Below are positions 1 to 33,829 of a DNA stretch of 44,373 nt, piece after piece. Both the position numbers and the translations under genes were made by a program. Under the pieces are notes generated by a model. The model searched no databases, was not told the DNA's origin, and worked only from the letters and a program-made list of their open reading frames with translations. The stretch spans positions 1 to 44,373 of IMG/VR virus record IMGVR_UViG_3300037237_000490; one strand, given 5' to 3'. Source of the DNA: a virus. How positions within the stretch are numbered: the first letter of the stretch is position 1; each line of letters starts with the position of its first letter.

Positions 1-1197
1 CTACCGCGGCTTTCGCTTTTTCACAGCCGGCGGAAAGAGCCACTTCCGCACGAACTTCGCCACGGCCTCGAGCCGCTCATCGGCAACGTGTTCGCGGTAC
101 GTGGCCGACATATCGCGTGCATCCGCCACGTGCCCCATGATTCGCGCCAGCGCCGCTTTATCGAGTGCTCCCTCGCCAACGGTTTGCAGCGTGTGGCGCA
201 GAGCGTAGAAGTTGAGCCCAGGCCGCTTGAGGCCGAGCTCGTCCAGCACCTTAGCGAACTCGTGGGACAATGGGCTGTTTCGGTGCGAATCCTCCCGCCA
301 CGGCCGCCCGTACTTGGTCACGAACAGCAGTTCACCGTGCTCCGGATCGGACGGGGCAGGGCGGGTGTCGATCGCAGCCTTGACCGCGGCGACCGTCTCG
401 GGCCACAGCTTGGCCCGCCGGGGCTCACCGGTCTTGGGGCGGGGGAAGTCCAGCCAGCCAGCTTTCAGGTCGACGTGTCCGAACCGCAACCGGGCGCAGT
501 CGCTGTTGCCCAGGCCGCAGTTGATGCCCAGCAGCACCATGGCCTTGATCTGCACGCCCACGGCGCCGAGGACCTTCACCAGTTGCTCACGGTCGAAACA
601 CCGCGGACCCTTCTCGGCCCGGGCGACGCGCAGATTCTTGGCGCTGGGGGGTTTGAAGCCGGCCCCAAACCGGGCGGCGTTCTCGAGCAGTTCGGACTCG
701 AACCCCCATCGGAACATCACACGAACCCGGGCGATCTCGTTCTTGAGGGTCACCAGGCCGCGGCCGAAAGCCAAGCTGGCCCGCAGGTGGGCGAAGTCTG
801 CGGGTGTCAGGTCTGACACCAGTCGGCGCCGCGTGAGGGTGTCAGCAACCCGCAAACAGGTCTCAAAATAGTCCTGCCACGATCGCTGCGCCAGCTCGCC
901 GTTTTCGACGGCAGTTTGCTTCTCGGCCAGGAACCGGTCGCACAGCTCTTTGACGGTGACACCCTCGGGCGCCTGACTATCGTCGAGGATGGGCTTGCGG
1001 CCGGCCCGGATGCCATGGCACTGCTCGTTCCAAACCCGTTGCGCCCGTTCACCATCGGGATCGTCGGCAATACTTCCCAGGTAGACGAACTGCCCTTTGA
1101 CCTTCTTGGCCCAGCGGCCCGACTGGTGGCGGAACGGGGGCTTGTCGACGGGCTTGGACTTGCCGGCGCGCTTCGCCGTGGTAGACTTTCCAGACAT
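1..1197 (-). CDS. Tyrosine recombinase / integrase-like protein, degenerate active site
   Basis: Member of the phage-integrase (tyrosine recombinase) family, 398 residues, a usual length. Residues 1-75 are basic and likely bind arm sites, about 80-170 form the core-binding domain, and 195-385 the catalytic domain. The catalytic boxes are altered. The box that normally carries the first Arg reads GINCGLGNSDC (224-234), with Gly where Arg is expected. Box II is YALRH (331-335), with Tyr in place of the usual His. A GH pair (355-356) and the nucleophile Tyr367 in ATYRE are kept. I recall this variant as typical of Planctomycetota integrase-like proteins. The ATG at 1197 follows GGAGGT at good spacing, and the stop codon is the first base of the window. 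It is transcribed away from the neighbouring tRNA-Met. It may belong to an element to the left of the window or to this phage. Activity is uncertain. Confidence 0.88.
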   Translation of the reverse strand: MSGKSTTAKRAGKSKPVDKPPFRHQSGRWAKKVKGQFVYLGSIADDPDGERAQRVWNEQCHGIRAGRKPILDDSQAPEGVTVKELCDRFLAEKQTAVENGELAQRSWQDYFETCLRVADTLTRRRLVSDLTPADFAHLRASLAFGRGLVTLKNEIARVRVMFRWGFESELLENAARFGAGFKPPSAKNLRVARAEKGPRCFDREQLVKVLGAVGVQIKAMVLLGINCGLGNSDCARLRFGHVDLKAGWLDFPRPKTGEPRRAKLWPETVAAVKAAIDTRPAPSDPEHGELLFVTKYGRPWREDSHRNSPLSHEFAKVLDELGLKRPGLNFYALRHTLQTVGEGALDKAALARIMGHVADARDMSATYREHVADERLEAVAKFVRKWLFPPAVKKRKPR

Positions 1198-1268
1198 AAC
1201 GCACCTCCGAAACAGGTGTCTTATGGGGCGCCCGTCGGCTGCAATCCGGCGGGTGCCATGCTTTTGAC

Positions 1269-1298
1269 AATGTAGCGGGTGTCAGCAACAGGTGTCAA
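1269..1298 (-). promoter_or_regulatory. Candidate promoter of the leftward recombinase
   Basis: Reading leftwards there is a perfect -35 box TTGACA (1298-1293) and a -10-like TACATT (1274-1269) with an 18-base spacer, about 70 bases before the start codon at 1197. GGTGTC motifs recur here (near 1210, 1279 and 1291) and again inside the gene near 802 and 837, so they might be arm-type binding sites. That part is only inference. Confidence 0.5.
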
Positions 1299-1354
1299 CT
1301 GGCCAAAAGCAAGGACTCTGGAAACAAACGCAAGTCATTAACACGAAACACTTT

Positions 1355-1428
1355 GGCGGCGTAGCTCAGTTGGTTAGAGCAGCGGAATCATAATCCGCGT
1401 GTCCGGGGTTCGAATCCCTGCGCCGCTA
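1355..1428 (+). tRNA. tRNA with CAU anticodon (Met, or Ile2)
   Basis: A full cloverleaf can be drawn: acceptor GGCGGCG with CGCCGCT (first pair G-T), D stem GCTC/GAGC, anticodon stem GCGGA/TCCGC with loop ATCATAA (anticodon CAT), and T stem CGGGG/CCCTG (last pair G-G mismatched) with loop TTCGAAT. Discriminator base is A at 1428. No CCA is encoded. The CAU anticodon means elongator Met or, if modified to lysidine, Ile. It lies between two tyrosine recombinase genes, so its 3' end is the obvious candidate attachment site. No second copy of the 3' half was seen in the window. Confidence 0.93.
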
Positions 1429-1530
1429 TTAGAAGCGATCCTGGGGCCTTCAGGAGGGTTTGCCGTCTACGGGTTTGCAGTTTTGACGTGCACAAAAAAC
1501 CGGGGCTCGCTGGCCGGCGTCGGGGTCGAG

Positions 1531-1555
1531 TTGTGCGGAACCAAAATCCGCACAA
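1531..1555. repeat. 8-bp inverted repeat near the tRNA
   Basis: TTGTGCGG (1531-1538) and CCGCACAA (1548-1555) are perfect inverted arms around a 9-base AT-rich spacer. Placed about 100 bp after the tRNA, it could be a recombinase or excisionase site. No function is shown. Confidence 0.4.
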
Positions 1556-1595
1556 GTCAAACCAGGCAATAAGGGAACAATAAACAATGGAAACT

Positions 1596-1670
1596 GGCCG
1601 GCCGGGCATCCTCTGAAAGCGTCGCCGCTTTTAGACCTACGGACGTTAGACACCTGTAGCCCGGCCGGCC
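1596..1670 (+). repeat. 75-bp structured direct repeat, copy 1
   Basis: Begins GGCCGGCCGGGC and ends with its exact inverse GCCCGGCCGGCC, giving a 12-bp outer stem. Inside are a hairpin AAAGCG-TCGC-CGCTTT and a weaker stem CTAC/GTAG (1637-1640 with 1656-1659). It is repeated 129 bp downstream at the same length. The gap 1429-1844 holds no convincing gene; these repeats are its main content. Confidence 0.75.
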
Positions 1671-1724
1671 TTTGAAGGTGACCGCGAACGTGGCGGTCTG
1701 TGGCGGGATCGGAGGACTCGAGTT

Positions 1725-1799
1725 GGCCGGCCGGGCATCTGCGAAAGCTTAGCCGCTTTTACAGCACTGGACTTCAGACATCTGTGGCCCCGGCCGGCC
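1725..1799 (+). repeat. 75-bp structured direct repeat, copy 2
   Basis: Same ends and same internal plan as copy 1: outer GGCCGGCCGGGC with GCCCCGGCCGGCC, inner hairpin AAAGC-TTAGCC-GCTTT, then CAC/GTG in the place of CTAC/GTAG. The outer stem here extends with AGTT/AACT (1721-1803). CTTCTTTTT follows, so this copy could also end a transcript. Parts of the loops differ while the pairing is kept. Confidence 0.75.
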
Positions 1800-1844
1800 A
1801 ACTTCTTTTTGCCGGCACAAGTTCGGCGGATTACGATTGACGGC

Positions 1845-2480
1845 ATGCGCACCCACACCCTGGCCTTCTTCCTCTCGGCGTCGATCTTCGGTTGCGACGC
1901 CGGCTCGACGGCTTCGCCGGAACTGGCGCGAGCTGTCCGCGAGCTTGATGCATTCCCCCCTTCGCAGCCGCCAGACGGCCCATCCGCCGCCGCGGCCGGA
2001 TCGAGCGAGCCGGGCGCCCAGACCGTCCTCGATACGCCTGCGCCCGAGGATGAGCAAATCAGGCAGGCGCGCTTTCTCGCGACGCCGGCCGACCTGGCGA
2101 GGATTCAACAGTTCGAGAGCAATCTGCGTGGCGGCCTCTGGAAACTGACGGCGGCCGACGCGCGGTTCTATCAGACGAGCCAAGCAGCGCCGCTTGTGCG
2201 CGAGGCTCTGTTACGCGCGGCCGAAAGCAACAGCGGCGGCGACCGCGGCATGGACGAGGCGGCCGATCTGATGGAGTTGACTCCGCGCGAGAAGATCGAT
2301 TTTGCACTCAGCGATCGTACGATGCGACGGACGCATGCCGACCTCGCTCGGCGCATTCACAACGGCGAAGAGCTGCCCCCCGACACCTTTCGCAAGCGAC
2401 ACCACGTCCACAATTTCTTCTCCCAGCGCATGCTGCGGGCCTATCTTCGACTGCGCGACGAGCAGCCAGTCGCGCGCTGA
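1845..2480 (+). CDS. Small predicted lipoprotein of unknown function
   Basis: 211 residues from the ATG at 1845. The N terminus MRTHTLAFFLSASIFGC has a short basic start, a hydrophobic stretch and a lipobox-like SIFGC, so the mature protein should be lipid-anchored at the Cys. A Pro/Ala/Ser-rich linker (about 30-70) leads to a charged, mostly helical C-terminal half with no domain I recognise. No strong ribosome binding site is visible. It sits alone between the 75-bp repeats and the second recombinase. It may be a host gene or a lysogenic-conversion gene; the sequence does not decide. Confidence 0.6.
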   Translation: MRTHTLAFFLSASIFGCDAGSTASPELARAVRELDAFPPSQPPDGPSAAAAGSSEPGAQTVLDTPAPEDEQIRQARFLATPADLARIQQFESNLRGGLWKLTAADARFYQTSQAAPLVREALLRAAESNSGGDRGMDEAADLMELTPREKIDFALSDRTMRRTHADLARRIHNGEELPPDTFRKRHHVHNFFSQRMLRAYLRLRDEQPVAR

Positions 2481-2498
2481 AAATCTTTCAACACGCAG

Positions 2499-2526
2499 TT
2501 GACAACTCCGCAACTCTCGTTCTAAT
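2499..2526 (+). promoter_or_regulatory. Candidate sigma-70-like promoter upstream of the second integrase
   Basis: TTGACA (2499-2504), a 16-base spacer and TCTAAT (2521-2526). It is about 420 bases before the integrase start at 2950, so it would give a long leader. The gap 2481-2949 has no convincing gene. Confidence 0.45.
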
Positions 2527-2592
2527 GGCCGCCGTCTGAAGATTCGGTGTCGCGCTTCGGCGCGGCTTGTAAAAGGCGGCGAGTATCTGAAA

Positions 2593-2643
2593 CACGGACC
2601 GGTTGCTAGCCGGTCATTCCCGACCATCTTGTCGGGCCGCGTG
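2593..2643 (+). ncRNA. Three-way-junction-like structure in the integrase leader
   Basis: CACG (2593-2596) pairs with CGTG (2640-2643) and encloses two perfect hairpins: GACCGG/CCGGTC (2597-2615) and CCCGAC/GTCGGG (2619-2636). It would lie in the long untranslated leader if the promoter near 2499 is used. It could control integrase expression, or be a DNA site. Function unknown. Confidence 0.35.
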
Positions 2644-2949
2644 TATCGGTGCCCGCTGAGAAGTTCATCGGTTATCGGTACGGCCGTTTGCCGCCTTGCT
2701 CGGCTGGCGGCCTGACATGTGGCTGTCGTCGACGTTCGGAGCGGCGCCGTTATCACTCAACGTCCGCCGCCCGCTCGTCGGCGCGCATGCCACGTTTTGC
2801 GCGGGAGTTGGCTATGCCTACGGGCTCACCGCTTTATCGAGGGTTTTTCGCGCCGTGGTCTGCGGCGCTTTTGTTCCCCACGGACGATCGCGGCTCGCGT
2901 GCTTTGTTGGACCTGCAGGAGGACAGCACGCCAGCCAAGGGGATTTTCT

Positions 2950-4056
2950 ATGTCGGTGCTACCTTCCCACTCTGCTATCCAACCGGCGACGATCAAGCTG
3001 TTCGCCGGCGATGCCAATCACTCGCCAACCGGGGCTCCCGGGAAACGCTCGGGCGCTCCGGGCTTGTCGCCACGGATGACGTTGGCGCAGTTCTACTGGG
3101 CCTTTTACCGGCCGATGGTGCTGGTTGCCAAGGGCGCGGAGAAACGCACGCTCGACGCCTACGATCAATCGATCCGCTACTGGCAGGAGCTCACCGAGGA
3201 TCCGCCGCTCGAGGACATCGACGACTTCCACATTGGCGGCTTTCTGACGGTGCTGGCAGCATTGCCCGGCCAGCGGCCCCGCGGTCGCAAAGACGCGCCG
3301 GCGCTGAGCCCCAACACGATCCGCAAGCACTGCACGCATTTGCAGGCCGTTGTCTATCGGGCCGGCCCGCGATCGCACGAACGCAACCGTCGCAAAGGGC
3401 AGGGGCTGATCGATTCGATTCCCTACTTCGAAAAACCGTCCGAGCGGGAAAAGCTGCCCGAGGACGATTTTTCGATTCCGGAGATCACGCTCCTCTTGGC
3501 CAACTGCGATGCCTCTCCGTCGCCGACCTACCTGGCGCCGGCCGAGCGGGCCATCTGGTGGCAGAACCTGTTCGTGTTCGACTTCAACGTCGGTTTGCGG
3601 ATCGGCAGTCTGACGCTGGTCGAGTGGGATCGGATCAAGCTCGATCCGAAGAAGGGCACCTGGTGGGTGACCGTGCGCGCCAAAGGGGGAAACGAAAAAA
3701 AGTCGTTCGTCAACAAGTTCGCGATGGCGCGGCTCGAGGCCATGCGCCCGCTGACGGGCCAGTATCCGCACGTGTTCCATTTCCCGCACACGCACAGCTG
3801 GTTGCAAGAGTGCCGACGGCGGATCATGCAAAAGGCCGGGCTGCCCGAGGAGCGGCGGTTCGGCTTTCACGGCCTGCGCAAGGCGATGTGTACCGAGGGG
3901 AGCGAGATCGATCCGCTGGCTGCACAGATGCAGGCCGGCCACAGCGATTTCAAAATGACGCAAACGCGGTACATCAACCCGAGCCGCGTGGCGAGCGCGA
4001 TGAGCCGATTGCCACAGCCCACGCTGCCCGGCAATCAAAAGCGTCTGTTCGAGTAG
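2950..4056 (+). CDS. int: Phage integrase, tyrosine recombinase with complete active site
   Basis: 368 residues. This is the enzyme most likely to insert and excise the phage. A long N-terminal region (1-45) precedes a core-binding domain (45-140), then the catalytic domain. The catalytic set is complete: Arg217 in VGLRIGS, a Lys near 245, His307 and Arg310 in HGLR, His331 in AGHSD, and nucleophile Tyr341 in TRYIN. The ATG at 2950 is chosen because AAGGGG lies just upstream; the reading frame stays open further upstream, but that part looks like random translation. A strong terminator follows at 4080. It lies 1.5 kb downstream of tRNA-Met, which suggests a tRNA attachment site. Confidence 0.92.
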   Translation: MSVLPSHSAIQPATIKLFAGDANHSPTGAPGKRSGAPGLSPRMTLAQFYWAFYRPMVLVAKGAEKRTLDAYDQSIRYWQELTEDPPLEDIDDFHIGGFLTVLAALPGQRPRGRKDAPALSPNTIRKHCTHLQAVVYRAGPRSHERNRRKGQGLIDSIPYFEKPSEREKLPEDDFSIPEITLLLANCDASPSPTYLAPAERAIWWQNLFVFDFNVGLRIGSLTLVEWDRIKLDPKKGTWWVTVRAKGGNEKKSFVNKFAMARLEAMRPLTGQYPHVFHFPHTHSWLQECRRRIMQKAGLPEERRFGFHGLRKAMCTEGSEIDPLAAQMQAGHSDFKMTQTRYINPSRVASAMSRLPQPTLPGNQKRLFE

Positions 4057-4627: not shown

Positions 4628-5130
4628 TGACCTGGCCCAACTATCTGCCGGTCTTGACGGTGGTTGACGTGCTCGACACGGGGGCCTGCATTGAGGAAGT
4701 CGCCAAGTGGGTTGGCGTGCACCGGATCATCGCCGGGGCGCCGTCGTTGTTTCCTGATCAGCAATGGATTCAACGCGCCGCAAGCGCGGACGGTGACGGT
4801 TACGGTGACGGTTACGGTTCCGGTTACGGTGACGGTTCCGGTTACGGTGACGGTTACGGTTACGGTGACGGTTACGGTTCCGGTTACGGTGACGGTTCCG
4901 GTTACGGTGACGGTTACGGTTACGGTGACGGTTACGGTGACGGTTACGGTGACGGTGACGGTTACGGTTCCGGTTACGGTTACGGTTACGGTTACGGTGA
5001 CGGTTACGGTTCCGGTTACGGTTACGGTTCCGGTGACGGTTACGGTGACGGTTACGGTTACGGTGACGGTTACGGTTACGGTGACGGTTACGGTTACGGT
5101 GACGGTTACGGCGGTGTTTCAGATTCATAA
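4627..5130 (+). CDS. Gly-Tyr/Asp/Ser dipeptide-repeat protein
   Basis: 167 residues from the ATG at 4627, overlapping the stop of the previous gene. The first 54 residues are an ordinary helical domain ending FPDQQWIQRAASA. The rest is 54 dipeptides of the form DG, YG or SG, then a short tail. Every repeat uses only GGT, TAC, GAC and TCC codons. That is unlike the GGC-rich genes around it and points to recent slippage or duplication. I recall similar N-terminal domains ('FPGDEEWIAAAANADGDG') next to DUF6948 proteins in other phages. The repeat part is probably disordered and may bind or phase-separate; its role is unknown. Confidence 0.75.
   Translation: MTWPNYLPVLTVVDVLDTGACIEEVAKWVGVHRIIAGAPSLFPDQQWIQRAASADGDGYGDGYGSGYGDGSGYGDGYGYGDGYGSGYGDGSGYGDGYGYGDGYGDGYGDGDGYGSGYGYGYGYGDGYGSGYGYGSGDGYGDGYGYGDGYGYGDGYGYGDGYGGVSDS
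4789..5112 (+). repeat. Hexanucleotide repeat array (GGTTAC/GGTGAC/GGTTCC)
   Basis: About 54 six-base units. Bases 4801-4860 and 4861-4920 are identical, so there is a perfect 60-bp tandem duplication inside the array. Near the end (about 5048-5110) an 18-bp unit GGTGACGGTTACGGTTAC is reiterated. The array keeps frame in units of six, so length changes would not break the protein. Confidence 0.95.
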
Positions 5131-5131
5131 T

Positions 5132-5158
5132 CGACGATCGCGGCAACCGCGATCGTCG
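5132..5158 (+). other. Perfect 12-bp hairpin after the repeat gene
   Basis: CGACGATCGCGG (5132-5143), loop CAA, CCGCGATCGTCG (5147-5158), starting two bases after the stop codon. There is no T tract, so it may stabilise the 3' end of the repeat mRNA or act as a protein site rather than as a simple terminator. Confidence 0.6.
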
Positions 5159-6311: not shown

Positions 6312-7589
6312 ATGTTCGAATTACAGAGACAAGCTGGCCGCCCGATGCCGAGCCACGCGGAGCGCGAGGCCGAGTTGTTCGGCCCCGTCGAGTTACGGGC
6401 CTGGATGACGAAGGGCGGCCGCCGATTGCAGGCCGCGCCGCAGGCCGCCTATCGCTGGCTGGCCGCGCATGCCGAGCGGCTGCCGTCCGAGTTCGAGTTC
6501 AAGCTGGCCGACCTGGGCCGATGTTTCTTCGCCACCTCGAGTAGCACGTCCAGCGATTGGGTGAGCACGCTCGAGGGTGAGGGTCTGCTGGAGATCGTGA
6601 AGGGTCGCCGCGGCTCGGCCGGCGGCCTGTGGATCCGTTTGTACGACGTTCGCGAGCTGGCGGAAGTGCGGCGGGCACGGATCGACCCGCAACTTCAGCT
6701 GCCGATCGTCGAGGAGGCGGACCTGGTTCCGTTCGCGCCGAACCATCTTCAGAGTAGCACTCTCTACTCCGAAGATGGTTCGCCACTGGACGCTGCTCGG
6801 CCCGGTGCTAGCATGGTGGAAAGTGGCCACGCCCATCTTCTGAGTAGCCATCACTACTCCGAAGATGGTTCGGCCTGTGTCGCGGCGGGTGACCTTGCGC
6901 AGGTCCCGCTGGCGCTTGTCGGCGCTCTGAGCTTGCGTCTCGGCGAAGACTTCGTCGAGACGCATCTCGGACGCTGCCGTTGGGAGCTGGGAACCACGTC
7001 TAAGCTGTTGGTGCCCAGCGACTTCCAGCGCGATTACCTGCGCGATCACTGGCTCGGCGAGCTACGCGCCGCCGTGGCCGATTGCGGGCTGCCGCCTCTG
7101 GAACTGGCCGTCGATCCGTCGCTCTCCGGGAGGCTCGGCAAGCTTCGGAGTAGTGAGCGCTACTCCGAAGATGAAAGTGCGCAACAACCAACGTTGGTTG
7201 TTAGAAGCTCTTGTAGAGCTTCTAACCAACCAACCAACCAACCGAATTTTTCGGATCAGCGGGGGGAAAGCGGCGACCAGGCGGTCGCCGCGGCCGTTCA
7301 CCCGCTGTTGGCACGCGCCGCCGCGCTCTACGGGCGCATCGGCGATCCGACGGTGTACCGCTGGATCGCGATCGCCACGGTGGTGCTGGTCGCGGACGGC
7401 GTGGTGACCGCGGCCGACGTCGAGCGACTGCTGGCCGAGCGCGGCGGCGACTTCAACACGGCGATCAAGCAGCTGGCCGGCAGCCGCTGGCCCAAGATCG
7501 GCTGGTTCAAATCGCGCCTGCTGCGCGAGGGCATCAAGTGGAAACGTTCCTGGGATCGAGGCACGGCCTCAGAAAGGGAGCCGCGATGA
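6312..7589 (+). CDS. Putative replication initiator: winged helix plus DnaA-N-like domain
   Basis: 425 residues. Residues 40-115 look like a winged helix (FELADLGRCFF-type recognition, then a basic wing GRRGSAGGLWIRLYD). Residues 198-268 resemble DnaA domain I (LGEDFVETHLGRCRWEL, then KLLVPSDFQRDYLRDHWLGELRAA), a helicase-contact fold also seen in phage and plasmid initiators. The C-terminal 330-410 is a further helical domain. The segments between domains (144-157, 174-187, 276-289) repeat the peptide L-x-SS-x-x-YSEDGS. They are encoded by three large DNA palindromes, so the gene probably contains its own origin, as lambda O does. The last bases overlap the next start (ATGA). Similarity to DnaA is by eye; function is inferred. 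Confidence 0.65.
   Translation: MFELQRQAGRPMPSHAEREAELFGPVELRAWMTKGGRRLQAAPQAAYRWLAAHAERLPSEFEFKLADLGRCFFATSSSTSSDWVSTLEGEGLLEIVKGRRGSAGGLWIRLYDVRELAEVRRARIDPQLQLPIVEEADLVPFAPNHLQSSTLYSEDGSPLDAARPGASMVESGHAHLLSSHHYSEDGSACVAAGDLAQVPLALVGALSLRLGEDFVETHLGRCRWELGTTSKLLVPSDFQRDYLRDHWLGELRAAVADCGLPPLELAVDPSLSGRLGKLRSSERYSEDESAQQPTLVVRSSCRASNQPTNQPNFSDQRGESGDQAVAAAVHPLLARAAALYGRIGDPTVYRWIAIATVVLVADGVVTAADVERLLAERGGDFNTAIKQLAGSRWPKIGWFKSRLLREGIKWKRSWDRGTASEREPR
6741..6780. repeat. Origin-like 40-bp palindrome A
   Basis: AACCATCTTC-A-GAGTAG, spacer CACTCT, CTACTC-C-GAAGATGGTT. The arms are 17 bp with one mismatch. It lies inside the putative initiator gene. Confidence 0.85.
6831..6870. repeat. Origin-like 40-bp palindrome B
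   Basis: CCATCTTC-T-GAGTAG, spacer CCATCA, CTACTC-C-GAAGATGG. Same spacer length as A, with its centre exactly 90 bp from A. The right arm is identical to that of A. Confidence 0.85.
7137..7176. repeat. Origin-like palindrome C
   Basis: CTTCGGAGTAG, spacer TGAGCG, CTACTCCGAAG: 11 perfect inner base pairs and the same 6-base spacer. The outer right arm keeps GAAGATG; the outer left arm has diverged. Its centre is 306 bp from B. Confidence 0.8.
7183..7254. other. Palindrome cluster, probable part of the replication origin
   Basis: A perfect 20-bp palindrome AACAACCAACGTTGGTTGTT (7183-7202) abuts TTAGAAGCTCT-TGT-AGAGCTTCTAA (7201-7225, perfect 11-bp arms). Then come direct CCAA repeats (7226-7241) and CCGAA-TTT-TTCGG (7242-7254). 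The stretch is visibly more AT-rich than its surroundings. It encodes only the Gln/Asn/Thr/Pro linker of the initiator, so the DNA, not the peptide, seems to be what is conserved. Confidence 0.6.
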
Positions 7590-7902: not shown

Positions 7903-10002
7903 ATGATCACGAAATCGAGAACCGCGACCAAACCGAAAACGGCCAAGCAGCTCGCCCGCGGCGAGCGGCCGCGCGAAGCGTCGGCCGAGACGGCACGAAA
8001 GGTCGCGGCCGCCAGGGAAATGCCTCCGCTGACCGACGCCGATCGCGAGGAGGCGCTCGAGGCGCTCTGGCGCGTGAAGCCGTCGCTGTGCCTCGACCTG
8101 CAAGCTTGCAAAACGTTGACGCAGGCGGCGCTACTCGTCGAACAGCAGCTGTTTTGGAATGCCGTTCCGCCCTGGTTCTACATGGAGGGGGCGGGAGTCC
8201 CCGGGATGAGTGCGATGGAAACAGGCGTCGTAGTTCGCGCCGCCGGGGGCGCCCGGATTGGCACGATCGATTGGGACGAGATCGCCGAGCACGCCCGCGA
8301 GACCGACGATCCGATCGATCGCGAAGAAGCCAACGCCAACGCCGGCGATCCCGAGGAGGATGACGAGGCCCAGGAAGACGACGACAGCGACGTCGAGACG
8401 GATGACGACGAGGAGGAGGCCAAGGTCAAGCCGGGTGCCAGGGCCGCGAAGGGCACTGGCACGACGAAGGCGGCTGCGAAGAAAGGCCCGTCGGCGGCGC
8501 CCGAGTTTCGCGAGTCGTCGGTTTCGCTGCACCAGGTCGAGCTGAGCCCCAACAACCCGCGCAAAGAGTTCAACCAGGCCGCGCTCGAAGAGTTGGCGGC
8601 GAGCATCCGCAGCGTCGGGCTGATCGAACCCATCGTGGTGCGACCCATCGGGCCAAATCGTTACGAGCTTGTCGCCGGCGAGCGTCGGCTGCGGGCTTGC
8701 AAGTTGGCCGGCAAGCACAGCGTGCACGTCCGCGTGGCCGAGATGACCGATGAGCAGGCCGACGAAATTCGGCTGATCGAGAACCTGCAGCGCCAGGACC
8801 TGTCGGCGATCGAGGAAGCCAACGGCTTCCAGCAGATGATCGCCCAGCATGGCTACACCCAGCAGCAGCTCGCCGCCAGGCTGGGCAAAAGCCAAGGGCA
8901 CGTGGCCAACCGGTTGGCGCTTTTGAAGCTCGGCCCGAAGTGGCGCGAGCGGATTATTTCGGGCGAAATGCCCAGCAGCCACGCCCGCGCGCTGATGAAG
9001 TATTCCAGCGAGCCAGCGCTGATGGGGGTCATCGAAGAGGCCATTTTATCCAAGGACAGCTTCGCGGGTATCGACCCTGATTTCGACGACTTCCGCGAGG
9101 ACGTCGACCGTGTCGCCCAGAACTTCACCAAGCCCATGACCGGCAAACACAGGTCAAGCGTCAGCTACAAGAAAGTGGGAATCTTCAAGCCGACGGTGGA
9201 GCAGCGCGAGCAACTCGGCATCGCCATGCTCGACGGCAAGGAGGTGGCCACCAACACGAAGTTGTGGACCGAACTGCAGACCGCGCACGAGAAGACGCTG
9301 GGCGCCAAATCCGATGGCAAAAAGAAGGGCAACGGGGGGGCCCCGGGACCGACGCCGGCTGAGCGGAAGGCCAATGAGAAGAAGAAGGCCGAGCAGCTCA
9401 ACGAGTGGGTCGGTAACTGGCGCGCCGATTGGCTGCGGACGATCCTGTCGCGAATGGCCGTCGAGAATCGCGACCTGGCGATGAAAACGATCGTGATGGG
9501 TCTGGCCCATGGCGTGCGCGTTCACGAGCAGGGCGACCGTGTGGGCGAGCTGGTGGAACCGCGGACGCCGGGCCTGATCAACGAGCGGGCGATCGCCGCC
9601 GACACGGTGAATGGCACGACTGAGGTCCTCGTGCAGCTCGCTGCCGATTGGCTGTGGGACGATTACCAGGCCAAAAGGGATCCCGGCAGCTGGAACGGTC
9701 GCACGCTAATGGGCGACGCCGTCGAGGCCCTGGCTGGCTTCGCGCGGGTCGACCTCGTCAAGGAGTGGCGCAGCAACCTAGCCGGCGATTTGACGCAGGC
9801 GTTTTTCAACCGTCACGACAAGGCTGCGCTGGTGACGATGGCGGATGCGTTCGGAGTCGACGTCCGCGGCGACGGACCGAAGAGCGAGATCATCGATTGC
9901 TTAATCACGCAGAGCAACACGAAACGTCATTTGCCCAACGCGATCAAACCGGTGGCCAGTCTCGCGAAGAAGGTCGGCAAGAAGGCCAAGCTGAAACGAT
10001 GA
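7903..10002 (+). CDS. ParB-family DNA-binding protein, long form
   Basis: 699 residues, roughly twice a chromosomal ParB. Residues 1-145 are a unique N-terminal domain, followed by an acidic linker (146-175). The ParB/Sulfiredoxin domain (about 205-300) has the start motif LSPNNPRKEFN and the nucleotide-binding GERRLRAC box (259-266). A helix-turn-helix, YTQQQLAARLGKSQGHVANRL in part (318-338), follows, then a long C-terminal extension (about 430-699) with a second charged region. No ParA gene is next to it, so true partition is doubtful. Phages often carry such proteins as transcription or genome-organising factors. CTP binding is known for the family; here it is inferred from the motif. Confidence 0.85.
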   Translation: MITKSRTATKPKTAKQLARGERPREASAETARKVAAAREMPPLTDADREEALEALWRVKPSLCLDLQACKTLTQAALLVEQQLFWNAVPPWFYMEGAGVPGMSAMETGVVVRAAGGARIGTIDWDEIAEHARETDDPIDREEANANAGDPEEDDEAQEDDDSDVETDDDEEEAKVKPGARAAKGTGTTKAAAKKGPSAAPEFRESSVSLHQVELSPNNPRKEFNQAALEELAASIRSVGLIEPIVVRPIGPNRYELVAGERRLRACKLAGKHSVHVRVAEMTDEQADEIRLIENLQRQDLSAIEEANGFQQMIAQHGYTQQQLAARLGKSQGHVANRLALLKLGPKWRERIISGEMPSSHARALMKYSSEPALMGVIEEAILSKDSFAGIDPDFDDFREDVDRVAQNFTKPMTGKHRSSVSYKKVGIFKPTVEQREQLGIAMLDGKEVATNTKLWTELQTAHEKTLGAKSDGKKKGNGGAPGPTPAERKANEKKKAEQLNEWVGNWRADWLRTILSRMAVENRDLAMKTIVMGLAHGVRVHEQGDRVGELVEPRTPGLINERAIAADTVNGTTEVLVQLAADWLWDDYQAKRDPGSWNGRTLMGDAVEALAGFARVDLVKEWRSNLAGDLTQAFFNRHDKAALVTMADAFGVDVRGDGPKSEIIDCLITQSNTKRHLPNAIKPVASLAKKVGKKAKLKR
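8956..8969. promoter_or_regulatory. ATTTCG-NN-CGAAAT palindrome, site 1 (inside parB-like gene)
   Basis: ATTTCG-GG-CGAAAT. It encodes part of IISGEM, a conserved stretch of the ParB helix region, so this copy may be due to coding alone. Confidence 0.4.
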
Positions 10003-10809: not shown

Positions 10810-11028
10810 ATGGCCGGCGTCTCGTTGGATACCGACTTCGCCGTGGCCTTCGACTGCGACTGCTCGGTCACGTTTTTCGCGGCTCATCAGTTTTCGGTCT
10901 CGCGACTGACGGCCTGCGCACGCCACAGCGGCGACGGGTTTCTCGACTTACGGGCGTCGCTCGCGCGCAGCGCACGCAAGGTGTTTGAAGATGTCTCAGG
11001 CGGCCGGCGAGTCGCCGGGGACATTTGA
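10810..11028 (+). CDS. Hypothetical small protein
   Basis: 72 residues, two bases after the previous stop, with GGAGAA upstream. The first half has hydrophobic beta-like segments (FAVAFDCDCSVTFFAAHQFSV in part) with two close Cys residues. The C terminus FEDVSGGRRVAGDI is encoded by the left arm of the 36-bp inverted repeat, so the end of this protein may have been created when that repeat arrived. Confidence 0.5.
   Translation: MAGVSLDTDFAVAFDCDCSVTFFAAHQFSVSRLTACARHSGDGFLDLRASLARSARKVFEDVSGGRRVAGDI
10987..11022 (+). repeat. Left arm of 36-bp inverted repeat
   Basis: Matches the reverse complement of 11766-11801 at 34 of 36 bases. Each arm contains a smaller perfect palindrome, CCGGCGA-G-TCGCCGG. 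The two arms flank exactly two complete genes. Confidence 0.9.
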
Positions 11029-11765: not shown

Positions 11766-11801
11766 GTCACCGGCGACTCGCCGGCCGCCTGAGGCATCTT
11801 C
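11766..11801 (-). repeat. Right arm of 36-bp inverted repeat
   Basis: Inverted copy of 10987-11022 with two mismatches. The distance between the arms is about 740 bp, filled by the two cassette genes. Confidence 0.9.
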
Positions 11802-14508: not shown

Positions 14509-15141
14509 ATGATCGCGGAAACCAATAGCTACCGGCAAATTCGGCAGCTCGTCAGAGACGGCGACCAGTTCCTGGCCCGCAATGGCGGCGTGATCGGCAG
14601 CGAGGCGCCGAGCGGCCACTCGCACTCTGGGGTCGTGTTTTGGTCGCGCGGCACGTTGACGGCGTTCGAATCGCGCGAGTTCATCGGCGCTCACTCGGTC
14701 TCCCTGTCGAGCCTGGTGCGCAAGTATCCGGGGCGCATTGACCTGTTCAGGCCGAACTGCATAGCCGCCGTGGCCTCGGTCGCGGCCGACTGGGCCGTGC
14801 GGATGGCCGGTCACGACTATGGCTATCGAAACGTGCTGGCCGCCTCGCTGCGTCATGGCTTCGTAGCTCGCCGCGCGGTGCGGTTCGCGATGCAGCGCCT
14901 CGGCTATCAGCCTCCCAATTTGACCGACGTCTCGCTGAGCGATTTTCACGAGCCCAAGTTTTGCGCCCAGGCCAACGTCTGGCTGTACCGCACCGCCCAG
15001 CTCGAGGTCTGTCGCGAGCTGGGCAATCTGGCCCCGGACGATTGGGATCCGTGGCCCGGCATCAATGAACGATATGTCGAGCCCTGGATGCTGTCCGGCG
15101 GCTCGTTCCGCTGCTACGCCCGCGGACTGCGGCACAGTTAG
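14509..15141 (+). CDS. NlpC/P60-like (YiiX-type) amidase, probable
   Basis: 210 residues. The His motif SGHSHSGVVFW (35-45) precedes the Cys motif PKFCAQANVWLYR (about 153-165), with AAVASVAADWAV and GHDYGYRNVLAASLRHG between. That order is typical of the permuted NlpC/P60 papain-like fold (YiiX/YebB type), whose members cut peptide or ester links in cell wall or lipids. No signal peptide is present. It may be a cell-wall hydrolase or lysis enzyme, but the substrate is unknown. Confidence 0.6.
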   Translation: MIAETNSYRQIRQLVRDGDQFLARNGGVIGSEAPSGHSHSGVVFWSRGTLTAFESREFIGAHSVSLSSLVRKYPGRIDLFRPNCIAAVASVAADWAVRMAGHDYGYRNVLAASLRHGFVARRAVRFAMQRLGYQPPNLTDVSLSDFHEPKFCAQANVWLYRTAQLEVCRELGNLAPDDWDPWPGINERYVEPWMLSGGSFRCYARGLRHS

Positions 15142-15173
15142 GAGTTGCGTGTGGCTGCTTGAAGGACGAAATC

Positions 15174-15187
15174 ATTTCGGCCGAAAT
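15174..15187. promoter_or_regulatory. ATTTCG-NN-CGAAAT palindrome, site 2
   Basis: ATTTCG-GC-CGAAAT in the gap before the thioredoxin-fusion gene. A further half-site CGAAAT lies one base before it (15167-15172), so three half-sites alternate here. Confidence 0.6.
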
Positions 15188-15235
15188 AATGCACCCTCAG
15201 CAACCCCCCAAATCGTCCCGCGAGGAGCTAGCCCG

Positions 15236-17143
15236 ATGACAAACTCGACACTTAAAACCGTCGCGCTAGCCTTCCTCGCGTTTATCTGCCTGGTCGGCAC
15301 TGCCGAGGCCCGTTGGCGGCGTTGCGTGCAGTGCGTGCCGAGGGCCGTCGTCCCGAAGCCGATCGACGAGGACACGGTCACGATGAGCGATGCCGACTTC
15401 CTCAAGCTACAAAAGGAGTATTTTGAGTGTCGCGAGCAACGAGCGGACTCGGAAGCTATCGTCCAAGTGCTCATGCGCGAGCTTGCGGACGTGAAGGCGA
15501 GCCGCGACGAGATTGGGGCGGCATGGGTTGAACTTGACCGACAGCGCGCGGCAAAGTCCGAGGAGGTCGAGACACTCGGCAAGGTTAACGAATCTCTTCG
15601 CGAGTACATCCAGGGGATTAGGGCCGGCGCTACGTACGAACGAGACGAGTACCGTCACGACTGCGAGCGGCTGAAAGGTAAGCTCGCTGCCGAGCAACGT
15701 CGCTCGAGCGAACTGGCCTTCGCCATGTGGGTCGGGCTCGCGGCCGTGGGCGTGCTCTTGATTTGCGCGATCAGGCTCGGGCGTTGCATGGGGATCGCTG
15801 GAATTGTCTGGGTCGTGTTCGCGGCCACTACGATCGCGTCCGCAGCCGATCCCGCGGTCCCCCACCCCGTCGCCTGGCGAGCGTGCGGATCGAATCAACG
15901 GACCGTCGATATCACCCGCGGCCTGTGGCTGCTCCGCTTCACGGCTCCCTGGTGCAAACCGTGCATCGCCAATCAACCCGACGTCAACATCGCGATCAAG
16001 TGCGGCGTGCATGTCGTCGACGTCAACGTGGACCAGTTCCCCGCCCTCGTCGCGAAGTACCAGGCGGAGCCGATCCCGAAGTTCGTACTCGTGTTCAACG
16101 GCCAGACCCTCGGCTATGCAAACGTGGCCATGAGTGCGGCCGATCAAGTTGCGTTGTGGAACATCGGCTGCGCCAGTGCGAACGGGATCAACAAGACGCT
16201 GGCAGATGCCCAGACGCAGGCACCGACCTCTGACACGGCCCCGAGCTTGCCGCCGACGTTCCAAGAGCCTGCACCCACGCAGTCGGCCAATACGACACCG
16301 CCTAATAATGGTTCGGCGACCGCTCCCGGGGCGATAACCGGCTCGACCCCGGTTGCCCCGGGAGCCTCTAACACTGCCGATACGACTGCCCCCCCGTGGC
16401 AACCATCGACCGTTGCGCCGCCAACAACCGCGCCGCTCGGCCCGCTCCCTCCGGCGGTAACTGCTGCGCCGCCTACAGCGACGGCCGCTCCATCAACGCC
16501 TCCCGTGGTCGTTGCACCGCCAGCGCCGACCGTGACTCTTCCCGGCGTTCCGACTAGCGGCCTTGTCGATGGGATTCTGCCTGCGCTAACGTCCCTCCTG
16601 GCTACGCTGGGTCCGACCGGAGCGGCGGCAGCCGGAGGGATTACCGCAGCCTGGGGCGCTCTCAAGACGGCTCAGGGGGCCGTGAACTGGCTCAAACGCA
16701 TACGAGGGTCTGGGCAGTCCGGCGGGGCGTCGGCGTCCTCCTCCTCGCAGGCGTCCTCGCCCGATGCCGCTGCCGCGAACGGAGGTTCCCAGCCGACTGC
16801 GGCGAACCCTTTTCCGGGGGCAACAACTGATGGCAGCGCAGCCGCTCCCGTCGCCACCACAAGCCCCGCCGCAGCCGTCAGCCCAGCCGACGACAGCGCC
16901 GGCACCGGCTTCGCCAAGGAGTACGGACAGCAGCTCATCGAGCAGCACACGCTCGCAGGACGCGACCCAGTATTGGACGCGACTCTCGGACGCGTTTACG
17001 AAGAGGAGATCGAGCAGCGATTGTCAGCCGGGAGCGGACAAGTGGCCCAAACGTTGACGGACCTACAGCAAACGGCACGAAGCCGTTTTTACGCGATTCA
17101 CCCGCCCGTCGTGAACACGGGCGCCAGTTCAGGAAGTCCCTAA
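15236..17143 (+). CDS. Exported coiled-coil / membrane / thioredoxin-like fusion protein
   Basis: 635 residues, ATG at 15236 with GAGGAG upstream. In order: signal peptide (1-25, ending GTAEA), coiled coil (about 55-160), transmembrane helix (163-180), a second hydrophobic stretch that itself looks like a signal peptide (185-204, ending ASAAD), a thioredoxin-like domain with FTAPWCKPC (235-243) and the typical IPKFVLVFNG strand, a long Pro/Thr/Ala linker (about 285-425), a hydrophobic Ala/Gly segment and a charged helical C terminus. It looks like two exported proteins joined. Thiol-disulfide exchange outside the membrane is likely from the CxxC motif; its use to the phage is unknown. Confidence 0.7.
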   Translation: MTNSTLKTVALAFLAFICLVGTAEARWRRCVQCVPRAVVPKPIDEDTVTMSDADFLKLQKEYFECREQRADSEAIVQVLMRELADVKASRDEIGAAWVELDRQRAAKSEEVETLGKVNESLREYIQGIRAGATYERDEYRHDCERLKGKLAAEQRRSSELAFAMWVGLAAVGVLLICAIRLGRCMGIAGIVWVVFAATTIASAADPAVPHPVAWRACGSNQRTVDITRGLWLLRFTAPWCKPCIANQPDVNIAIKCGVHVVDVNVDQFPALVAKYQAEPIPKFVLVFNGQTLGYANVAMSAADQVALWNIGCASANGINKTLADAQTQAPTSDTAPSLPPTFQEPAPTQSANTTPPNNGSATAPGAITGSTPVAPGASNTADTTAPPWQPSTVAPPTTAPLGPLPPAVTAAPPTATAAPSTPPVVVAPPAPTVTLPGVPTSGLVDGILPALTSLLATLGPTGAAAAGGITAAWGALKTAQGAVNWLKRIRGSGQSGGASASSSSQASSPDAAAANGGSQPTAANPFPGATTDGSAAAPVATTSPAAAVSPADDSAGTGFAKEYGQQLIEQHTLAGRDPVLDATLGRVYEEEIEQRLSAGSGQVAQTLTDLQQTARSRFYAIHPPVVNTGASSGSP

Positions 17144-20526: not shown

Positions 20527-21276
20527 ATGCTGATTTCCCGGTCGGAACTATGCGCGCGGCTGTCGATCGAAGCCAAGCAGCTGACCACCTGGCTGCGCGG
20601 CGGTCTGCCGTCGAAGGGCAGCGGCCGAGAGCGCCGCTTCAACGAGTCGGCGGTTCGCGCCTGGATGAAGGCCAAGGGCAAACCCTCGCCGCCGGAGACG
20701 GTGGTCTGCGTCGCGGCCGAGGGCACGTCGCCCGAGTGGGCCGGCGAGCCGATCGTGCACACCTGGTCCGAGGTGGCCGCGCACTTCGGCAGGGCCGAAC
20801 GGACAGTGGCCACTTGGATCAATCAGGGAATGCCGTGCCGCCGCGGTCGACCCGGCACGCGCGAGGGCGTGTTCCCGCTCAATTCGATTCGCGACTGGCT
20901 CGAGGGGCGCCCCACGTCGGGCGGCACTCCCGAGGACGCGACGAAGAATCAGGCCCAAACGCGTTTGACCCTGGCCAAGGCCGAGATGGCCGAGATCGAG
21001 CTGCGCGAGAAGCGCGGCCAGCTGGTCGAGGCCGACGAGCTCTGGCGGCGCCTTACCCGTCTGCACCACGAGGCCAAGGCTCAGCTCGGCCAGTTGCCGG
21101 CCCAGATCGTCAAGTGCTTTGGCGACAAGGCATCGCCCAAACTCCGCAACCGGATCCGCCAGGCAGTGCGTCGCACGGTCGACGAGGCCCTGATGACCTT
21201 GGCCCTGTCGTTCGACCGCGAAGCCCAGGACGCCGAATCCAACCCCGAGCCGCCGGCCGAAGATGGTAACCGCTAA
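20527..21276 (+). CDS. Terminase small subunit, Nu1/excisionase-like, two HTH domains
   Basis: 249 residues from the ATG at 20527; the frame is open from 20386 but that part is not protein-like. Two winged-helix 'DNA-binding protein' units follow each other: ISRSELCARLSIEAKQLTTW (3-22) and VHTWSEVAAHFGRAERTVATW (79-99), each followed by an 'L.G.P' turn as in Nu1. A coiled coil (about 145-180) and a helical C terminus would join TerL. It recognises the packaging site. The start of TerL lies inside its last codons. Confidence 0.82.
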   Translation: MLISRSELCARLSIEAKQLTTWLRGGLPSKGSGRERRFNESAVRAWMKAKGKPSPPETVVCVAAEGTSPEWAGEPIVHTWSEVAAHFGRAERTVATWINQGMPCRRGRPGTREGVFPLNSIRDWLEGRPTSGGTPEDATKNQAQTRLTLAKAEMAEIELREKRGQLVEADELWRRLTRLHHEAKAQLGQLPAQIVKCFGDKASPKLRNRIRQAVRRTVDEALMTLALSFDREAQDAESNPEPPAEDGNR

Positions 21277-23320
21277 CATCCAACTGCCGACTCTCGCCGC
21301 GCGCTTCCAGCGCCCGCTGGCCCGCGTGCTGGGCGCCGCAGGAGCCGCCTGGCGGCCGGTCGCTCCGCCTCCGACCGACGTATGGAGCGAACGCAACCTG
21401 ATGCTGCCGGCCGACACCTCGGCCGCGCCGGGGCCGTTCGATCTCAGCCGCCGCCCCTACTGGCGCGAGCCGCTGTCGCTGATGGATGATCCCGAGATCC
21501 ACTCCATTACGATCATGGGCGACGCCCAGGGCGGCAAGACCGTGGGCCTGATGGCCATGCTCATCAGCCGGCACACCTGCAGCCCCGCGCCGTCCATGCT
21601 GGTCACTCCCGACCAGGACTCGAGCCGCGAGCTCCGCGACAAGGTCTACGGAATCTGCGACGCCTCGCCGGCGATCGCCGGGCTCGTGCCTCCGCCGCGG
21701 CTGCGCAACGATCGCTCGATCGACCTGGGCACCATGCTGTGCTACCTGGCCTACAGCGGCAGCGCCCAAACCATGCGCGGCCGTCCCTGCAAGTTCGTGT
21801 TCGCAACCGAGGTCGACGTCTGGCGCGACGATCCCCGCCTCGGCGCCAGCGCTCAGCTGATCAAGGCCCGCACCAAAGCCTTCCGCGAGAGCGACTACAA
21901 AGTCGTTTACGAAAGCACGCCCACCGACGACGCCAGCACGATCGCCGCCCTCTATGCCCACAGCGATCGTCGCAAGTTCCACGTGCCCTGCCCGCGTTGC
22001 CGCCATTGGCAGGAGCTGCGGTTCTTCCCTCACACCCGGGGTCCCTATGGCGGCTGCGGCGGCGTGGCCGGCCTGGTCAACAAGCACGGCGCGCGACTGA
22101 CGCCGGCCAAGGCTCGGCGCGAGGCGTACTACCTCTGCGAAAAGGGCTGCCGCATCGACAGCGAAGCCAAGGCCGAGATGATCGTGGCCGGGGTCTGGGT
22201 GCCGCGCGGCCAGTCGATCGACGAGGCCTCGGGCGCGCCACGGCTCGTTGGCCGCCCCAGCCGCTCGCCGCGCAACGCCGGCTTTCAAATTTCGGCGCTC
22301 TATGCTCCCAACCTGTCCTTCGGCGACGTGGCCGAGGCCTTTCTGGAGCATCGCGAGAACAACCAGCTGCGCGCCTTCTTCAACAACTGGCTCGGCCTGC
22401 CCGACAAGGCCGCGGCCAAGCTGCCCCACTGGAAGAAGCTAGGTCAGCGACTGGCCTGGCAACACCGCCGCGGCACCGTGCCCGCCGAGGCTTATTTCCT
22501 CACCAGCCAGGCCGACGTGCAGAAAGACCGTAGCTATTACGGAGTGCGGGCCTGGGGCAACGGGCGCACCAGCTGGCTCGTCGATTGGGAATGCATCCCG
22601 AAGGACGAGCCAACCGTCGCCGAGCAGCGCGGCGGCGCGCCGATCGCCGGCGACCTGGCACGCTTGGAGCTGGAGGTGCTCGAGGCTCGCTTCCCGCTGG
22701 TCGGCAAAAACCCCTGGGGCCTGGATTTCTTGCCGGTGCGATTGCTGGGCGTCGACTGCAACTATCGCATGTTCGAAGTCCACAACTTCGTGCATCGCGC
22801 ACGCACCCGCTACGGCGATCGCGTCCGCGCCACACGCGGCGATCACAAGGTCGATCCGTCGCAGCTCTATCGGATGAACCGCGTCGATACCAACGCCCGC
22901 ACCGGTGAGCGTTACGAAGGCGGCCTCGAGCTGTGGGGCGTCTCGGTCGACGTCTTCCGCGAGCAGCAGTTGGCGCTCTTTGGCTATCCGCCGGCCGAGC
23001 CCGGCGGCTGGCGCCTGACGGCCGACGTGCTCGAGCTCGGCACAGACTACTTGCGGCAGATCGTCAACCAGGGCCCTCAGATCACCGTCTCGCCGGCCGG
23101 CAAGAAGGTCCGCCGCTGGGTCACGCGCGACCCGGCGCTCGGCGAGCATTATTGGGACATCGAAGTCCTGCAGCTCGCGCTCGCCCACATGATCACCGGC
23201 GGCGAATGGGATCTCGACAAGTTCGCACCGCCGGTTCCACCGGTCGAGCCGAAGGACGCAGCCGCGCATCCACTGTTGGCCGCGCGCGACAACATCGGCG
23301 AATCGTTCGCCGCCCGTTAA
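21263..23320 (+). CDS. terL: Terminase large subunit, GpA family
   Basis: 685 residues, the size of lambda gpA. Residues 60-80 read as the family's PFDLSRRPYWREPL entry, then Walker A GDAQGGKT (86-93), a Walker B-like strand FVFATEVD (178-185) and a zinc-binding pair with CPRC and CEKGC. The nuclease half carries LLGVDCNYR. It powers DNA entry into the head and cuts the concatemer. The start overlaps TerS by 14 bases in another frame. The gene is complete, with no missing key motif seen. Confidence 0.95.
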   Translation: MVTANIQLPTLAARFQRPLARVLGAAGAAWRPVAPPPTDVWSERNLMLPADTSAAPGPFDLSRRPYWREPLSLMDDPEIHSITIMGDAQGGKTVGLMAMLISRHTCSPAPSMLVTPDQDSSRELRDKVYGICDASPAIAGLVPPPRLRNDRSIDLGTMLCYLAYSGSAQTMRGRPCKFVFATEVDVWRDDPRLGASAQLIKARTKAFRESDYKVVYESTPTDDASTIAALYAHSDRRKFHVPCPRCRHWQELRFFPHTRGPYGGCGGVAGLVNKHGARLTPAKARREAYYLCEKGCRIDSEAKAEMIVAGVWVPRGQSIDEASGAPRLVGRPSRSPRNAGFQISALYAPNLSFGDVAEAFLEHRENNQLRAFFNNWLGLPDKAAAKLPHWKKLGQRLAWQHRRGTVPAEAYFLTSQADVQKDRSYYGVRAWGNGRTSWLVDWECIPKDEPTVAEQRGGAPIAGDLARLELEVLEARFPLVGKNPWGLDFLPVRLLGVDCNYRMFEVHNFVHRARTRYGDRVRATRGDHKVDPSQLYRMNRVDTNARTGERYEGGLELWGVSVDVFREQQLALFGYPPAEPGGWRLTADVLELGTDYLRQIVNQGPQITVSPAGKKVRRWVTRDPALGEHYWDIEVLQLALAHMITGGEWDLDKFAPPVPPVEPKDAAAHPLLAARDNIGESFAAR

Positions 23321-24385: not shown

Positions 24386-24459
24386 CCGCGCGTAGCTCAA
24401 CTGGACAGAGCTGCCGAGTTCTAATCGGCCGGTTGTGGGTTCGAGTCCCACCGCGCGAA
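24386..24459 (+). tRNA. tRNA-Arg (anticodon UCU), phage-borne
   Basis: Cloverleaf: acceptor CCGCGCG with CGCGCGA, so the first position is a C-A mismatch; D stem GCTC/GAGC; anticodon stem GCCGA/TCGGC with loop GTTCTAA (anticodon TCT); 5-base variable loop; T stem GTGGG/CCCAC with loop TTCGAGT; discriminator A. It reads AGA and AGG, which are rare codons in such GC-rich genes. It sits between packaging and head genes, so it is part of the phage. Confidence 0.9.
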
Positions 24460-29412: not shown

Positions 29413-30114
29413 ATGTCGCTCGACGTCCTTTCACTCGATTATCGTTTCTACGGCATCGCGAAGCCGCCCGCCGTGGCCAGCGCCGCCGGAGGTCCCTGGT
29501 GCAGCAAGATCACCGCCGGCGGCTCGCCGACCATTTCAAGTGCGCTGGGCCTGATGAGCCTGGCGCTAGACAGCACGGTGGAAATTCAAAACCTCTGCCT
29601 GTACTGGGGCGACGACCTGGCCCTCACGATTGGCCAGATCGTTTCGCTTGACATCTGGGCCAGCGTGAGCGCCGCCCTGAATGGCGTCATCACCGCCAGC
29701 TTTGGGTTGGCCAGCGCTCGCAACGATGCGATCGCTTCGATTTCCCAGTACCTGCTGTTCCAGCTGAACGGCAACAACAACTTGTCCGCGCTGTCGAAAG
29801 ACGGCTCGCACAACGTGGCGGCCACGGCCACCGGCCTGACGCTCTCGACCACGATCCGCAGGTTTTCGTTCGACCTGGCCTCCGGCGTGCTCACGCAAAG
29901 CGCGCCCAACCTCTCGCTGGGAGGCTCGGCCAACGTGCGCGTCGCGGCCGAAAACAGCCAGGGCCTGGCGCGGACGGTGCTCGCCAGCACGCCGGTCAAC
30001 ATGAGCGGCTACACCGGGGGCCTGCAACCGTTCTTCCAGCTCCAGAAGACCAGCAACGCCGCCGTCGGCACGCTGAACCTGCAACGGATGCTGATCCGCT
30101 ACAAGCAAAACTAA
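29413..30114 (+). CDS. Predicted head decoration or structural protein
   Basis: 233 residues, ATG at 29413 with GAGGGT upstream. It is beta-rich with many Ser, Ala, Leu and Asn residues, in an orderly series of strands, and no recognised motif. Directly after the capsid gene, so it is probably a shell decoration or cement protein. The 142-bp gap before it begins with GCCTCTGGCGGC and contains GGCGAT-GGAA-ATCGCC, resembling the start and one hairpin of the repeated element found later. Confidence 0.55.
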   Translation: MSLDVLSLDYRFYGIAKPPAVASAAGGPWCSKITAGGSPTISSALGLMSLALDSTVEIQNLCLYWGDDLALTIGQIVSLDIWASVSAALNGVITASFGLASARNDAIASISQYLLFQLNGNNNLSALSKDGSHNVAATATGLTLSTTIRRFSFDLASGVLTQSAPNLSLGGSANVRVAAENSQGLARTVLASTPVNMSGYTGGLQPFFQLQKTSNAAVGTLNLQRMLIRYKQN

Positions 30115-30118
30115 AGAG

Positions 30119-30206
30119 GCCTCCGGCGGCCCGCGAGCCGCGGGGGGCGGTGTAAGAAATCGTACATCGCCTGTCGCGGCGTCGCGACCGCCCGCCGCGC
30201 AGGCGC
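30119..30206 (+). repeat. Duplicated multi-hairpin element, copy X
   Basis: Begins four bases after a stop codon. Elements: GCCT...AGGC and GGCGG...CCGCC closing stems, CCCGCG-AGC-CGCGGG, GGCGGTGTA/TACATCGCC (loop AGAAATCG) and GTCGCG-GCGT-CGCGAC. The last 48 bases match copy Y at 46 positions, and the first hairpin block is identical over 26 bases. Confidence 0.85.
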
Positions 30207-30231
30207 TTTCCCTTTCCTCGTTTGGTTTCTC

Positions 30232-33342: not shown

Positions 33343-33684
33343 ATGAACGAGTTAGCCGTAGGTAGCAGCAAGAAACTGACCCTCGCGCCCCACTTGCCCG
33401 ACGGCACCGACGGCAACGTCGACGGCGTGCCGACTTGGGACCGCAGCGACCTGACGGTGGCCACGCTCGCGGTGGCCGAGGATGGCATGAGCGCCGCCAT
33501 CACCGGCAAAGCCGAGGGCCCGGTGACCGTCAAGGTCACGGCCGTCGTCGATCTCGGGACCGGCGTGCACACCCTCACGCGCTCGATCGACTTCCAGGTC
33601 ACGCACCCCGAGGCTAGCGGCATCTCGATCGACGTGAGCGACGAAGGTTCGGGCGCTGGCTCGGGTGCGGTGGCGCAGAAGTAA
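33343..33684 (+). CDS. Small Ig-like (BIG-type) structural protein
   Basis: 113 residues, GAGGAAA upstream. The fold pattern LTVATLAVAEDGMSAAITGKA, then GPVTVKVTAVVDLG, is that of a small bacterial Ig-like domain found on phage tails and heads. Likely decorates the tail tube or head. It ends in a Gly/Ser tail. Confidence 0.6.
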   Translation: MNELAVGSSKKLTLAPHLPDGTDGNVDGVPTWDRSDLTVATLAVAEDGMSAAITGKAEGPVTVKVTAVVDLGTGVHTLTRSIDFQVTHPEASGISIDVSDEGSGAGSGAVAQK

Positions 33685-33691
33685 CCAAGAT

Positions 33692-33793: not shown

Positions 33794-33829
33794 TTTTTAA
33801 GCCTTTAACCTAAAAGCCTATTTCCCACC

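Follow-up and report, generated by a model that had tools for sequence, protein, structure and literature searches.

In a virus record of 44,373 nucleotides (the whole stretch of DNA that we analysed, hereafter the window), a cluster of palindromes within one gene is probably the theta-type replication origin of the phage, located where its own initiator gene encodes linkers. What we observed is anatomy: repeats that exceed chance and do not depend on the encoded peptide, and an AT-rich stretch. From this we infer the origin function of the cluster. The window carries terminase, portal and capsid genes, an integrase, CsrA and a ParB-like gene, and comes from a temperate phage. A planctomycete host is likely, because genes related to its integrase and ParB genes occur on pPLIM01, a circular, prophage-like plasmid from Planctopirus limnophila. 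The gene that holds the cluster accounts for 2.9% of the window sequence. The features are as follows, with the strand given for coding parts.

6312 to 7589, plus strand: candidate gene for the replication initiator (425 aa), an open frame in which GC3 is high either side of the linkers
6739 to 6782: dyad 1, putative initiator-binding iteron; 19-nt arms with one mismatch and a 6-nt spacer, CGAACCATCTTCAGAGTAG-CACTCT-CTACTCCGAAGATGGTTCG
6833 to 6868: dyad 2, putative iteron; 15-nt arms with one mismatch and a 6-nt spacer, CCATCTTCTGAGTAG-CCATCA-CTACTCCGAAGATGG
6867 to 7136, plus strand: DnaA-domain-I-like coding part (about residues 195-270); fold matches, PF11638 below cut-off, shuffle-tested alignment
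6934 to 6964: additional palindrome, unrelated in sequence to the dyads, TGCGTCTCGGCGAAG-A-CTTCGTCGAGACGCA
7143 to 7170: dyad 3, putative iteron nearest to the AT-rich stretch; 11-nt perfect arms and a 6-nt spacer, CTTCGGAGTAG-TGAGCG-CTACTCCGAAG
7183 to 7202: longest perfect palindrome of the window, 20 bp, AACAACCAACGTTGGTTGTT
7183 to 7252: AT-rich stretch, putative unwinding element; (CCAA)n run and the start of CCGAATTTTTCGG, GC3 0.36
7200 to 7226: hairpin with 12-bp arms and a 3-nt loop, GTTAGAAGCTCT-TGT-AGAGCTTCTAAC, overlapping the 20-bp palindrome
7903 to 10002, plus strand: ParB-like gene (ParB_N and HTH_ParB), downstream of the putative initiator gene

The three dyads with a common consensus, CATCTTC-N-GAGTAG, on which the original prediction was built, are indeed present, each with a 6-nt spacer and all within the 425-aa gene. 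At 0 to 2 mismatches the half-site occurs six times in 44 kb, every time in this gene, and the consensus is found within two mismatches nowhere else in the window. The half-sites fit it, with one exception: in dyad 3, the outer part of the left arm is degenerate (AAG for CAT). The spacers are constant in length and variable in sequence. The centres lie 90 and 306 bp apart, as had been stated, and both distances are multiples of 3. Dyads 1 and 2 jointly form a 42-nt inverted repeat (6737-6778 / 6833-6874). The perfect 20-bp palindrome reported downstream also exists, and its position could be fixed at 7183-7202; it is a candidate for a second type of site or for a ParB site. The inverted repeat described behind it is real, although its arms measure 12 bp and not 11. 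The tail was correctly called AT-richer: at 58.6% AT, the 70-mer 7183-7252, which abuts dyad 3, ranks second in AT content among the non-overlapping 70-mers of the window. The palindrome at 6934-6964, inside the DnaA-I-like coding part, had been overlooked.

Scanning the window for interrupted palindromes returned six strong ones, five of them in this 1.3-kb gene. When the gene's own codons were redistributed among identical amino acids (300 synonymous shuffles), palindromes of equal strength appeared 0.06 times on average and once at most, against the five observed, while 49 other viral loci held at most 2 such palindromes per 1-kb stretch. Folding z-scores were -8.7 and -6.8. Since synonymous shuffling destroys the palindromes, the peptide does not force them, and selection acted on the DNA and not on the peptide. 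Codon use points the same way: GC3 is 0.84 in the N-terminal part and 0.87 in the C-terminal part, drops to 0.50-0.56 in the dyads and the interval between dyads 1 and 2, and reaches its lowest value in the tail. The simplest reading of this unusual codon use is a constraint at the DNA level.

From N- to C-terminus, the putative initiator consists of a winged-helix-like region, linker 1, a DnaA-domain-I-like domain, linker 2 and a helical C-terminus. Between the N-terminal part and the folded domain lies an unstructured stretch, modelled with low confidence, that contains dyads 1 and 2. A second unstructured stretch holds dyad 3, the 20-bp palindrome, the hairpin, the CCAA run and the AT-rich stretch. 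Low GC3 together with low model confidence marks these dyad-bearing stretches as predicted linkers, in keeping with the suggestion that the dyad-encoded peptide (SS-x-x-YSEDGS) is a linker, here one flanking a folded domain.

Residues about 195-270 are the sole well-modelled part of the 425-aa protein. Their top Foldseek matches were DnaA domain I of B. subtilis and M. genitalium (E 0.025), and their best VIA matches DnaA domain I of H. pylori and B. subtilis (2wp0, Z 6.3; 4tps, Z 6.1). Unrelated ribosomal-protein folds follow closely (Z 6.0), so that the fold alone is not decisive for DnaA domain I. At the sequence level, Pfam DnaA_N (PF11638) matched with an E value of 0.006, under the family cut-off, and the score of the alignment to E. 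coli DnaA domain I was attained by 6 of 2000 shuffles. Both proteins have the core PxxFxxD[WY]xRDxxL, the phenylalanine of which occupies the place of F46 in E. coli DnaA, a DnaB contact (PMC5448010). The DnaA-N-like part of the original prediction thus has support from the fold and weak support from the sequence, and we hold the presence of a DnaA-domain-I-like fold with moderate confidence. The winged helix is a lead. Its secondary-structure order (helix, strand, helix, helix, strand, strand) is indeed that of a winged helix, and is the sole basis for it, in a model of low confidence (pLDDT 39). Confidence is low both for the whole-protein model and for that of the N-terminal part. No winged-helix or O-like chain was prominent in the fold search with the whole-protein model, a negative that carries little weight, and no curated family scored above cut-off for the 425-aa protein.

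If the cluster is an origin, the N-terminal winged-helix-like region would bind the three dyads as dimers, with one subunit per arm. The bound initiator would strain the adjoining AT-rich stretch 7183-7252, where the palindromes and the CCAA run may assist strand opening. The DnaA-domain-I-like module, the helical C-terminus or both would then recruit the host replicative helicase. Dyad binding, strand opening and helicase recruitment are predicted steps of this mechanism. Among the window proteins scanned, we recognised neither a replication helicase or primase gene nor a P-like loader gene, and the only Walker-A motif that the coding strand yielded belongs to the terminase. As no helicase or primase was recognised among these proteins, recruitment from the host would be necessary if the 425-aa protein is the initiator. 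This is also the weakest step of the proposed mechanism, because, according to a review (PMC5448010), E. coli is the only organism in which DnaA domain I has been shown to interact with the helicase.

Several observations bear on the location of the origin. GC skew, which had been proposed as a check, turns close to the left end and again around 21 kb, near the cluster but not at it. The third-position GC skew of plus-strand genes is about 0 to the left of 21 kb and about -0.15 from there to the right end. The change at 21000-21300 coincides with the start of the terminase gene, a border between gene modules. We therefore do not take this skew as proof, since it fits an origin in the left arm but also a module border. 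No DnaA box was found in the cluster; the window has one DnaA-box-like 9-mer, at 5494, which is fewer than expected by chance. It also counts against an origin that the palindrome 6934-6964 lies in the domain-coding part and not in a linker, and that the nearby ParB gene offers an alternative reader of the palindromes.

The latter makes for the strongest rival, as the ParB gene lies only 0.3 kb away: the palindromes could be partition or loading (parS-like) sites for a ParB/Noc-like protein encoded downstream, with their host gene incidental. ParB proteins read palindromes near their own gene. The downstream protein has ParB domains (ParB_N, E 3.9e-25; HTH_ParB, E 3.4e-21), its top NCBIfam match is Noc, under the family cut-off, and the perfect 20-bp palindrome has the gapless geometry of the parS type. 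This palindrome could serve ParB even if the three dyads do not. The dyads themselves, with a 6-nt gap and arms of 11-19 nt, differ from the gapless 16-bp parS, and no canonical parS was found within 3 mismatches, although the ParB here may have another specificity. The window also lacks a ParA-like Walker motif, and the palindrome list of pPLIM01, which bears ParB, contains no such dyads. Partition sites would account neither for the AT-rich stretch nor for the position of the palindromes in linkers, and we consider this reading unlikely.

We give a low probability to a purely regulatory role, in which the palindromes would be operators or RNA hairpins controlling the gene (by autorepression, transcript cleavage or attenuation) and no origin would be involved. 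Operators are typically palindromic, and the single strands form strong hairpins. However, the palindromes lie 430-900 bp inside the gene, neither a promoter-like site nor a T-run terminator is found at them, and no Rfam family was matched. It is very improbable that they are copies of a small selfish element inserted in frame, like the palindromic elements that enter genes of Rickettsia in this way (PMC10969869). All three copies do share a reading frame and encode a hydrophilic linker peptide, but they measure 28-44 bp, against about 150 bp for the Rickettsia elements, and all of them sit in one gene and not in several unrelated ones. Beyond this gene, neither the window nor 2.9 million viral contigs nor 84,980 genomes yielded a copy, and the AT-rich stretch would again be left unexplained.

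Compared with known systems, the proposed origin resembles in layout that of phage lambda. In the lambda ori, initiator-binding repeats with dyad symmetry and, after them, an AT-rich tract lie centrally in the O gene (PMC7466680), a layout that the present cluster shares. The cluster had been called lambda-like, and the layout, iterons and an AT-rich tract within a gene, agrees with this. The protein family does not: neither the whole 425-aa protein nor its parts matched a phage replication protein O domain in Pfam or PHROGs, and we therefore consider the likeness one of layout and not of family. It had also been pointed out that the sites are inverted here and direct in lambda. This contrast is smaller than claimed, because each lambda iteron is itself an imperfect inverted repeat of 19 bp (PMC7466680). 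The differences are rather that the dyads are longer (28-44 bp), number three where lambda has 4-6 iterons, lie far apart (90 and 306 bp), are split around a domain and accompany a DnaA-domain-I-like module.

The RepA_N plasmid pSK41 offers a second parallel. Its central sites lie within rep, in DNA that encodes the linker between the DNA-binding and host-interaction domains, and deletion of this linker is tolerated when ori is supplied (PMC5703833). The N-terminal part of the 425-aa protein does not match the RepA_N domain (pfam06970) in Pfam at E values up to 10, neither Pfam nor PHROGs assigns the protein to RepA_N, and the present gene differs in its long dyads, its two linkers and its C-terminal part. 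Unlike both lambda and pSK41, it has two sites in linker 1 and one, together with the AT-rich stretch, in linker 2. A third likeness is to the RepA origin of PLE1, a Vibrio cholerae satellite, which has three iterons, semi-palindromic and about 30 bp long (PMC8263062). The PLE iterons, however, are in non-coding DNA, and the proteins have no family match in common. The present case merges features of lambda, pSK41 and PLE1, and adds long dyads, wide spacing and the split around a folded domain. The layout of an origin inside an initiator gene is known from lambda and some plasmids; here it occurs in a protein without detectable relatives.

pPLIM01 (NC_014149) has, besides the related integrase and ParB genes, a CsrA gene, as in the window. 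It also encodes a 342-aa candidate initiator (26606-27634), whose linker-coding DNA likewise contains a palindrome, together with CCCGGGTATCAC repeats. There is no BLAST match between the two candidate initiators and the repeat sequence differs. As the two proteins do not align, we treat pPLIM01 as an analogy for layout and not as homology. This plasmid (1-37010) carries terminase, portal, capsid and tape-measure genes and is thus a phage-plasmid. A 39-bp palindrome follows its ParB gene (33488-33526).

Relatives of the 425-aa protein were sought in viral, phage and plasmid collections. No homologue was found in viral contigs with the whole protein, the N-terminal part or the C-terminal part, nor among phages or plasmids, nor in 34 virus records sharing the DUF6948 gene; such scans depend on short exact peptide matches or on similarity that BLAST detects, and distant relatives can therefore escape them. 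The dyad pattern was likewise absent from the 2.9 million viral contigs and the 84,980 genomes. A relaxed pattern returned one lone AT-richer contig without related genes, which we took as a chance match. Searched against phages, the cluster DNA gave short weak matches only, and no integrase relatives were found in genome contigs.

We tentatively raise the possibility, which we regard as doubtful, that the protein represents a new family of phage initiators. Such an initiator would lack the AAA+ engine and have its DnaA-domain-I-like module between two linkers, the DNA of which makes up a split origin of long dyads; it would bind sites to either side of the DNA for its own helicase-recruiting domain. 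If the cluster is an origin as proposed, a phage, probably of a planctomycete, would join the small set of replicons with an origin inside the initiator gene, and linker-coding DNA would be suggested as a recurrent home of origins. A phylum with poorly known phages would gain a defined candidate origin and initiator, useful for vectors, and the system would test whether a DnaA-domain-I-like module recruits the helicase outside DnaA.

Other features of the window were noted. At the left end (1-4056), two tyrosine integrases on opposite strands flank a tRNA-Met (1354-1429). Host DNA or a second element may be present there; no attL/attR repeats of at least 14 bp were found at the tRNA-Met. Tandem 12/18-bp units (ACGGTT/ACGGTG) occupy 4789-5111, in an ORF encoding Gly-Tyr-Gly-Asp repeats, and are followed by a 27-bp palindrome (5132-5158). 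A dispersed GC-rich palindromic repeat (AAGATGCCTC-GGCGGCCGGCGAGTCGCCGG-like) occurs on both strands, at 10987-11022, 11766-11801, 30114-30154 and 33687-33727. Two of its copies precede a 50-nt stretch that is 96% identical between them (30160-30209 and 33747-33796). A large ORF with a central thioredoxin domain (15065-17143) lies between the early and late phage genes, and a tRNA-Arg (tct) is located within the phage structural region (24386-24459).
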